From the NCBI RefSeq assembly GCF_028858725.1, contig NC_084771.1:6786915-6850914 (forward strand): DNA of 64,000 nt. Reading direction: 5' to 3'. This DNA comes from Colius striatus (lineage: Eukaryota; Chordata; Aves; Coliiformes; Coliidae). Both the position numbers and the translations under genes were made by a program. How positions within the stretch are numbered: the stretch's first letter is position 1; each line of letters begins with the position of its first letter. The notes under the pieces are model-generated. The model saw only the letters and a list, made by a program, of their open reading frames with translations. It had not been told where the DNA came from and did not search any database. Below, one piece after another: positions 20,896 to 63,207 of this stretch.

Positions 20896-21267
20896 ATGAG
20901 CAGGCACACGTGGTTCCCTTTGCAGTACATCTCCAAATCCTTCTGGAGAACAGAGAATCACAACACGACCAAGTTCTTCTCTGCACTGTATAGCTTCCCT
21001 AACCACTCCTTCTTCCACAGTGACCTGGAGGACCTGGGGGACTTTGACAGCGGGACCAAGTACGAGGGCGAGTCACAGAGCCGGACGGTGAAGGCACTGC
21101 TGATAGTGGCCTACTCTGTGATCATCTGCATCTCGCTCTTTGGCAACATCCTGGTGTGCCACGTGGTGATCAAGAACAAAAGGATGCACTCTGCCACCAG
21201 CCTCTTCATCGTCAACCTGGCCGTTGCCGACGTGATGATCACTGTTCTGAACACCCCCTTCACACTG
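20896..21267 (+). CDS. GPR83L: GPR83L coding exon 1
   Basis: Residues 1-124: the extracellular N-terminus, TM1 (from about residue 65, [20 protein letters not shown]), the first intracellular loop with [10 protein letters not shown], and most of TM2 ending TPFTL. The donor is CTG|GTGAGC and the intron is phase 0. The acidic stretch DLEDLGDFD just before TM1 is not found in the downstream paralogue. Confidence 0.93.
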
Positions 21268-60911: not shown

Positions 60912-63207
60912 GTAAGTGTCCCGCTGTGCTGTCCCGTCAGCCAGGAGGGGAGTCTCTCACCAGAAAGCCCCATGTGGTGTTCACACTTGCTCTGTGCATG
61001 CTCTTCTAGCACTGAGGTGTGAACCCAGCACAGGCAAGTCTAATAGACAACTCTGCCAGGCAAGTGAAACACCATTCAGCAGCCTGTGAGCTCTCTTTGT
61101 GCTGTTAGACTCTCCTAAAGGACTCTAAAGTCTCCCCAAGTATGCCACCAGACCACAGCTAGAGCTTCTTGGGGAATGCAGAGTAAGAACCCAGATGAAC
61201 GTGTACTTTTAATGTGCATGCAGGAGAGCACTAGAGAGTCACACTTAACACTTAGTGTGTCAACACAGGTCGAATGCCAGTCATACTCAGGTGACTGGAA
61301 GAAGGTAGTCAAGCTTTTCAGAGCTGCAGTTGAGTAAAGTCGTAGTGAAAGCTCTCCACATCTGAAGGGGGGTTGTGTGACCAAACCTGGGCCTACTTTT
61401 TCCAAATGTGGTTGTTGGAATAATTAAAAGGTTATTTAACTGCTGTTCACAAAGGCTGTTTATACAAGCAGCCCAGGAGGGCTGCAACAGCACCACTCTT
61501 TTGGTCTGGGGGTTTTGACCTTATAAACCCTTATGCAAAGGTGTTTCAAAAGCCAACGTAGCTCATCTTCCTTTGGGCTTCAGGTGGAACTGCCCAGCCA
61601 GCTGGTCAAACCCTCTGTGCCAGCTCAGGTGTCATCCAAAGGGTCTCTCCATGGGTTTGCTTTCAATGCCTTTGCTGGCTGGTGAGGTCTGCTTTTCCCC
61701 CCAGGTTCGGTTTGTGAACAGCACGTGGGTGTTTGGGAAGGCCATGTGCCACGTCAGCCGCTTCGTGCAGTACTGCTCCCTCCACGTCTCCACGCTGACG
61801 CTCACAGCCATCGCCCTGGACCGGCACCAGGTCAAATACCACTCAGCCTCCTCCCAAAGCCCCCAGCCTTGGCTGACCTGTGGGTTCACAGTGCCTGAAT
61901 CTTGGGAATTAACCCCATATCTAGTGAGAAGGCTCTGGAGATAAATTCTACGATGCTGCTTGTGTGTGAGGGATGGGAAGGCTCAATGGACTTCTGTAGG
62001 CTTCCAAGTACAGGATGGGAGGGAAAGCACAAAGTGCAGGATCACAGGTTACACAGGACACTCTGAGGATCTCAGTGGCAAAGGGTGAGGACACCCTTTT
62101 CTAGTAATTTGGAAAGAGCCAGGTCCAACCTAGTCCCCAGGTATGGCAGAGCAAGTTGATTCAAGAAGCTGTGTTTTACACAAGGGGTCCTGACAGACAG
62201 CAGAGCCAATGTGGGGTGCAAAGAGTTAGTGCACAGGGAGCATTTCCAAGCTCTTAAATTTGCCATCCAGAGCCCACAGAACACCGGTCTGTAGCGTCCT
62301 GAGCTCAAATTCCGATTTAGTTGTGTGTTCTTTTGCTCTTGTTTTCTCATTGGTCGTTTGCTGCATCATCAAGTTGCAGGACAGCTGGGGTAAAATGAGC
62401 TTCTGAGATTAAAGCCCCGTGGTATCAGTATGGGATTAATGCTGGGCCAGTATAAAGGGGAACAGCAGAGTGAGAAACCTCTGTGGGAAGTACTGGGAGG
62501 AGCCTGTGCCCCTGTGTGCTGCAGGCAGGCTGTGCCAGGGGCTCGCTGCAGTGCCAGGCTGGGAGGGAGAGGGCAGCCCAGGCCACGCACTCACCTCTGC
62601 CAACCTTCTCCTTTCCTGCACTTCCAGGTTTTATGAGCTCTTTATCTTTTCGTCTAACAAACCAGATTTCATAGAAGGTGAATTAATGCCTCAGAAGAGA
62701 GGTGGAGTTTTCAGCTCAAACAGGAGACATTTCTTTGTGTCATTCACATAGAATTAACAAACATATCCATAAGCAAAGAGACTTGTGTAGGTATCTTTTT
62801 TTTTTTCCTGCTGAAGGTAACCCACAATTTAAGGAAAATGGTCCTCACAGAACAAAATAGGGGGAAAAGTTTATTTCAAAGCACTTCTGAGCAGAAGACT
62901 CAAAAGTTCAATGTGTCCCCTTCTCCAGGTCACTGTAATAAGCAGGACATTTTCCTAATCACGGCTGTCATTTTCTTAATAGCCTTAGATCATGTCAGAA
63001 AATGCCTCTGCTGTGTGCATTGGTGAAGGGACTTTGCTGTATGATGAGAGTCACAGTGAGGTCTGTGTTGCAGGTCATCCTGAACCCGCTGAAGCAGAGG
63101 ATGTCGCTGACAAAGGGAGCGCTGAGCGTCTCTGTTATCTGGCTGATGGCAACCTGTTTCTCCCTGCCTCATGCCATCTATCAAAAGCTTTTCCAGTATA
63201 ACTACAG
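60528..63207 (+). CDS. GPR83: GPR83 G protein-coupled receptor, first three coding exons (3' end beyond window)
   Basis: Joined from 60528-60911, 61705-61830 and 63074-63207: 214 complete codons plus two bases of the next. The start is the first ATG in frame and has a strong CCACC context. In order: an N-terminus with NxS/T sites at N37 and N42, TM1 with N88 (1.50), TM2 with D116 (2.50), N133-S-T, C143 at the start of TM3, D167-R168-H169 replacing DRY, loop 2 [11 protein letters not shown], and TM4 with [12 protein letters not shown]. The NSTW, SLHVS and LTLTAIA stretches and [11 protein letters not shown] agree with human GPR83 better than the upstream copy does, so this is called the orthologue. 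TM5-TM7 are in an exon past 64000. As in the upstream copy, no signal peptide is visible, although human GPR83 has a hydrophobic leader; a missing upstream coding exon is possible. Intron 2 has a very poor donor (GTCAAA). Confidence 0.9.
61705..61830 (+). CDS. GPR83: GPR83 coding exon 2
   Basis: Residues 129-170, from [12 protein letters not shown] to ALDRHQ, 42 codons, phase 0 at both ends. The acceptor is strong (CTTTTCCCCCCAG). The donor is CAG|GTCAAA, which matches consensus only at the GT and the exon side. If it is not used, the frame runs on for 37 residues to a TAA at 61942-61944 and would end the receptor after TM3. Confidence 0.88.
63074..63207 (+). CDS. GPR83: GPR83 coding exon 3
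   Basis: Residues 171-214 plus the first two bases (AG) of codon 215. It covers intracellular loop 2 and TM4. The acceptor is GTGTTGCAG and the donor is CAG|GTGAGT, phase 2. The AG fits Ser, the residue found at this junction in human GPR83. Confidence 0.92.

Follow-up and report, generated by a model that had tools for sequence, protein, structure and literature searches.

The window, that is, the whole stretch of 64,000 nucleotides that was analysed (C15:6786915-6850914 of a genome of 1.21 Gb in 191 contigs, which was also the genome searched), carries two receptor genes on the same strand, here called copies A and B and separated by 33.8 kb, together with the end of a hephaestin-like gene upstream. 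The features are as follows.

391..629, + strand: final exon, coding for the transmembrane tail, of a hephaestin-like gene; ORF 318-629, acceptor CTCTCCAG, start counted by hand
20896..21267, + strand: copy A exon 1 (N-terminus, TM1, TM2), 372 nt, donor GTGAGC, phase 0
23258..23383, + strand: copy A exon 2 (TM3, DRH motif), 126 nt, both ends in phase 0
25418..25551, + strand: copy A exon 3 (TM4), 134 nt, ends in phase 2
26089..26713, + strand: copy A exon 4 (ECL2 to stop), 625 nt, Pfam 7tm_1 with E 1.8e-23
56751..57750, no strand: CpG-rich stretch some 3 kb ahead of copy B, observed/expected CpG 0.88-0.99
60528..60911, + strand: copy B exon 1, 384 nt, donor GTAAGT, Pfam 7tm_1
61705..61830, + strand: copy B exon 2, 126 nt
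63074..63207, + strand: copy B exon 3, 134 nt, ends in phase 2
Window-equivalent 66592-67165 (C15:6853506-6854079), + strand: copy B exon 4, outside the window, open and in phase

Copy A (20896-26713, + strand) consists of four coding exons with GT/AG borders at all three introns (1990, 2034 and 537 nucleotides) and encodes 418 amino acids and a stop. Copy B extends beyond the window, positions 63208-64000 being part of its third intron; its last exon, which had been named beforehand as a possible break, starts 2,592 bases past the window end, is open, and completes a protein of 405 amino acids from four exons with usable borders and an open frame throughout (introns of 793, 1243 and 3384 nucleotides). 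The introns of the two genes fall at the same codons in phases 0, 0 and 2, and exons 2 and 3 measure 126 and 134 nucleotides in both, so that these gene models bear out the preliminary description of two GPR83-family receptors in tandem, about 34 kb apart, with equal intron phases and equal lengths of exons 2 and 3. Membership of the family is indicated by the rhodopsin-family seven-transmembrane domain (Pfam 7tm_1 in exon 4 of A and exon 1 of B), by the four exons with phases 0, 0 and 2, and by the latch residues discussed below. A PDB search with the whole of copy A returned peptide receptors as the best relatives, e.g. PRLHR, NPY2R and the substance-P receptor, whereas among bacteria and archaea, whose genomes were scanned with the same copy, there were 10 pattern matches and no relative, as expected.

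Exon 1 alone is 64.6% identical between the two copies (E 8e-37), which excludes chance likeness. When 12-32 kb was compared with 50-64 kb by blastn, all three matches with E < 0.01 fell on exons 1-3 (79%, 80% and 72% identity), and hence the flanks, the introns and any UTRs of the two copies have no detectable common sequence at that setting; this and the differing intron lengths agree with the earlier statement that introns and UTRs are distinct. The residues SSTW, SVHVS and LTLAA that had been singled out in copy A were confirmed in its sequence, as was its acidic stretch before TM1, where the net charge over 25 residues is -5 in A, compared with -2 in copy B and -2 in the GPR83 gene of contig C1 described below.

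In the 34 kb that separate the copies, Pfam revealed no additional gene; the scan took in 10 long ORFs, all without a match, and 3 others of the 312 listed, and could miss short exons of another gene. No tRNA was found in the window, nor any Rfam match. A minisatellite with a 24-base GC-rich unit in 8.5 copies occupies 33393-33600, within a CpG-rich region at 33001-33750, and an ORF without a Pfam match at 42048-42407 on the minus strand reads like what we presume to be a decayed CR1 LINE reverse transcriptase. The CpG-rich stretch at 56751-57750 is a possible candidate promoter of copy B; near copy A no segment passes the same cut-off, and the promoter types of A and B may thus differ.

In the core, which runs from TM1 to helix 8 and comprises 292 codons, the two copies are identical at 219 residues, with dN 0.17-0.18 and dS 1.06-1.32, and dN stays at 0.16-0.18 against a dS of 1.06-3.0 across the comparisons among A, B and the contig C1 gene, values of dS above 1 being near saturation. 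Judged by these rates, both copies are under strong constraint. That one of the copies might be a decayed or non-functional relic is suggested by the tail of copy B, which is shorter, unrelated, and without the C-terminal TD-S-V-PI pattern that copy A keeps in common with the contig C1 gene and human GPR83; set against its four exons, usable borders, open 405-residue frame and low dN relative to dS, we find this scarcely credible.

Genomic neighbourhood and the location of GPR83

The tail exon at 391-629 has no PDB match and only Pfam matches below the cut-off; further upstream, all three exons scanned match multicopper-oxidase families, one of them just under the cut-off, and for the upstream oxidase exon that was compared the best PDB relatives are ceruloplasmins. 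We take the tail exon to be that of hephaestin (HEPH). Downstream of copy B, C15:6875186 marks a TNF-receptor repeat on the minus strand (the genome has 11 matches of this kind), and the PDB relatives of its exon are weak and all named TNFRSF9 (E 0.004-0.009); we read this gene as, presumably, EDA2R. The only androgen-receptor-family match in the genome, a weak one of 27.1 bits against a cut-off of 25.3, follows at C15:6946258. The order on contig C15 is thus hephaestin-like gene, A, B, TNF-receptor gene and androgen-receptor match, and, with the flanking genes read as HEPH and EDA2R, A and B occupy the position that in mammals lies between HEPH and EDA2R/AR. Mammals, we assume, carry GPR165 at the equivalent place on the X chromosome, with mouse Gpr165 between Heph and Eda2r; in human, GPR165 is a pseudogene. 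Chicken 4p is the arm common to the mammalian X, and the 23.1-Mb contig C15 of this bird-like genome fits the separate avian chromosome 4A. On chicken chromosome 4, at 0.28-0.34 Mb, a SNP table runs in the order HSF3/HEPH, HEPH/GPR83L and GPR83L/ENSGALG00000038728 (PMC8356427), and gpr83l is placed on GGA4p and also reported in chameleons (PMC10901801). From position and names we infer that A and B are orthologous to mammalian GPR165/Pgr15l.

An exon-4 search of the same genome (74 matches, of which the best 8 were inspected as loci) returned copy A itself, then C1:10778403-10779017 and copy B at 63% identity, followed by a drop to 38%. The gene on contig C1 encodes 423 amino acids in exons of 384, 126, 134 and 628 nucleotides with the same phases as A and B. 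For comparison we used a working version of the human GPR83 sequence, confirmed at the 15 of 15 residues that were checked against the numbering in PMC5148169. Against this working sequence, 252 of the 292 core residues are identical in the contig C1 protein, compared with 224 in B (77%) and 216 in A (74%). MRE11 matches lie at C1:10799929-10802508, some 18 kb from the receptor gene, and human GPR83 presumably also adjoins MRE11, on 11q.

Trees were built three times with different outgroups and models, LG+C20 for the first, which carries a long-branch warning, and LG+G4 for the other two. The contig C1 gene groups with human GPR83 in two of the three (91/98 and 98/99), the fork being open in the third, and arrangements joining A or B with C1 alone were rejected in six of six AU tests (p 0.0005 to 0.014). 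Because of the core match to human GPR83, the tree grouping, the AU tests and the MRE11 neighbour, the contig C1 gene is, on these comparisons, to be read as the GPR83 orthologue, and A and B as paralogues, not orthologues, of GPR83; it is the contig C1 gene, rather than A or B, that is both closest to the human GPR83 sequence used here and beside MRE11, the presumed neighbour of GPR83 in human. The assumption that one copy of the pair stands for GPR83 accordingly fails, the orthologue being a third gene.

The related claim that copy B is nearer to human GPR83 than copy A holds by a little, both in the core and over the whole protein alignment of 401 columns (252 identities for B and 248 for A against the human working sequence); to the GPR83 of this genome, A is nearer over the whole alignment (253/401 versus 243/401; in the core, 217/292 for A and 219/292 for B), and it is A, not B, that keeps the C-terminal motif. 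By position, the pair represents GPR83L, a locus already known, together with the gene next to it, and not a duplicated GPR83.

Our preferred reading, to which we give a probability of roughly 0.83, is that both copies are intact peptide receptors of class A within the GPR83/GPR165 family and represent, in sauropsids, the receptor set found on the X chromosome of mammals between hephaestin and EDA2R/AR, and that they are paralogues of GPR83, with GPR83 itself on contig C1.

Age and branching order of the pair

The preliminary description had spoken of an old split with both copies retained, and this view stands up well: the frames are open, constraint is strong, and the split looks old, since A and B are about as far apart as either is from the contig C1 GPR83 (219, 217 and 219 of 292 identical residues for A-B, A-C1 and B-C1). 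Taken at face value, -log identity calculated by hand puts the A-B distance at about twice the bird-mammal distance between C1 and the human gene; this distance may nevertheless partly reflect rate, because the end branches of A and B exceed those of both GPR83s in all three trees, by about 1.2 to 2.3 times. These long branches are what a recent or bird-only duplication with two fast-evolving copies could draw upon, as fast rates could feign age. Such a duplication is very unlikely in our estimation, given that only coding exons align between the loci and dS exceeds 1, that GPR83 itself lies elsewhere in the genome, and that gpr83l is reported from chameleons (PMC10901801) and a GPR83L subtype from Ensembl 95 (PMC6504862), although neither source, in the parts that concern this gene, shows both copies outside birds.

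Whether A and B are sisters is a finer matter. The outgroups were the longest ORFs of the own-genome loci L004-L007 (the longest ORF of L008 was not receptor-like and was left out); their receptor types are presumptive, L005 and L006 being taken as NPY-type receptors. With L005 and L006 as outgroups, A and B form a clade at 91/99, whereas B falls with GPR83 at 64/61 when all four outgroups are used and at 62/67 when L004 is the only one, the A+B clade being absent from both trees. None of these arrangements was rejected (p-AU 0.15 to 0.35), the A+B arrangement having p-AU 0.25 and 0.35 in the trees from which it is absent, and trees with outgroups this distant cannot settle how A and B branch; the tree with the A+B clade was accordingly given no preference. 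Sister status is favoured on other grounds, because synonymous divergence is lower between A and B than between either of them and C1 (dS 1.06-1.32 versus 1.54-3.0) and identity at third positions is higher (156 of 292, versus 139 and 143 with C1).

Within the preferred reading, we consider it somewhat more probable than the contrary that a single tandem duplication of a GPR165-type gene took place after its split from GPR83, in early jawed or early land vertebrates, and that the two products later took on a different ligand or tissue each. The tandem order on one strand, the clade recovered with the two presumed NPY-type outgroups, the synonymous and third-position figures, and nine of ten 2:2 columns that split A and B from C1 and human GPR83 (a pattern also compatible with non-sisters) all argue for this course of events; the protein identity between A and B, which is no higher than that of either with C1, the loss of the clade under the other two outgroup sets, and a dS close to saturation argue against it.

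A more far-reaching proposal, which we hold to be rather doubtful, is that birds keep a three-receptor GPR83 family from early vertebrates in which A and B are separate ancient lineages, not sisters, that have had distinct peptide ligands since before the bird-mammal split, and that mammals lost one of these lineages outright, thereby leaving its ligand without that kind of mammalian receptor.

Predicted function and known counterparts

The basal activity of human GPR83 is restrained by the segment that precedes TM1: alanine substitutions from Y61 to Q66 increase it, and in models E64 pairs with R148, S65 with R221 and Q66 with N324 (PMC5148169). Copies A and B both keep Y61, E64, S65, Q66, R148, R221, F228, W236 and N324 (human numbering; the last four latch residues of B were read by eye from the alignment), and neither keeps N67, D218 or R321. 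Because the latch residues are kept, A and B should carry the brake of GPR83, so far as can be told from their residues. The human residues R58-R60 are replaced by G-T-K in A and by L-A-K in B; in the human receptor, substituting alanine for R59 or R60 reduces basal signalling, and the basal activity of A and B may, at a guess, be lower. In all, A and B most likely act like GPR83, as cell-surface receptors for a secreted peptide; they would couple to G proteins through the DRH/TM3 face, and the extracellular stretch just before TM1 would serve as a built-in brake.

As for the ligand, PEN was proposed for GPR83 in 2016 and supported by two other laboratories, while a 2023 comparison confirmed only FAM237A among three candidates; the paper that gives this account, in which binding and activation of GPR83 by FAM237A are reported, likewise saw no effect of PEN (PMC10606834). 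With a clear map of the three genes, these disputed ligands can be tried on the paralogues too, and since A and B both retain the latch but have unlike tails, they lend themselves to probing the role of either part. In studies of avian or reptilian GPR83 the three receptors can be mistaken for one another; in the canary, mRNA described as that of GPR83 is shown in the song nuclei HVC and RA (PMC4373106). Among openly licensed papers, we found none that reports the two genes as a tandem pair or sets all three receptors side by side, and a modest gap thus remains in the literature on the pair; the value of the finding is ordinary but useful.

Compared with A and B, the contig C1 GPR83 has the same exon structure and phases on another contig and beside another neighbour. 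GPR83 begins with a signal-peptide-like segment and carries basic residues ahead of TM1 (RRR in human, R-S-R in C1); both features are absent from A and B, which lack a hydrophobic start (peak mean hydropathy 0.53 in A and 0.90 in B versus 1.77 in C1). Besides having RSR for human RRR, the contig C1 protein has alanine (A) for valine (V) at the start of exon 2.

The two genes are of a kind that already has names: GPR83L next to HEPH in chicken, and Gpr165 and Pgr15l in rodents. The two rodent genes appear in a list of receptors for which rodents and primates are set apart by one gain or loss (PMC2117022). According to a survey of vertebrate receptors, Ensembl 95 reveals a new GPR83 subtype, GPR83L, and shows Pgr15l to be a duplicate of GPR165 in mammals (PMC6504862). 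The claim that mammals have a single GPR83 overlooks these rodent relatives (PMC2117022, PMC6504862). They are named as relatives of GPR83 (PMC6504862) and are compared here by position and name; as Pgr15l is described as a mammalian duplicate (PMC6504862), the rodent pair may stem from a separate duplication. Chicken GPR83L and ENSGALG00000038728 show the same order of HEPH, GPR83L and next gene, so that by position copy A fits GPR83L and copy B fits its neighbour; position hence favours copy A as the counterpart of chicken GPR83L.
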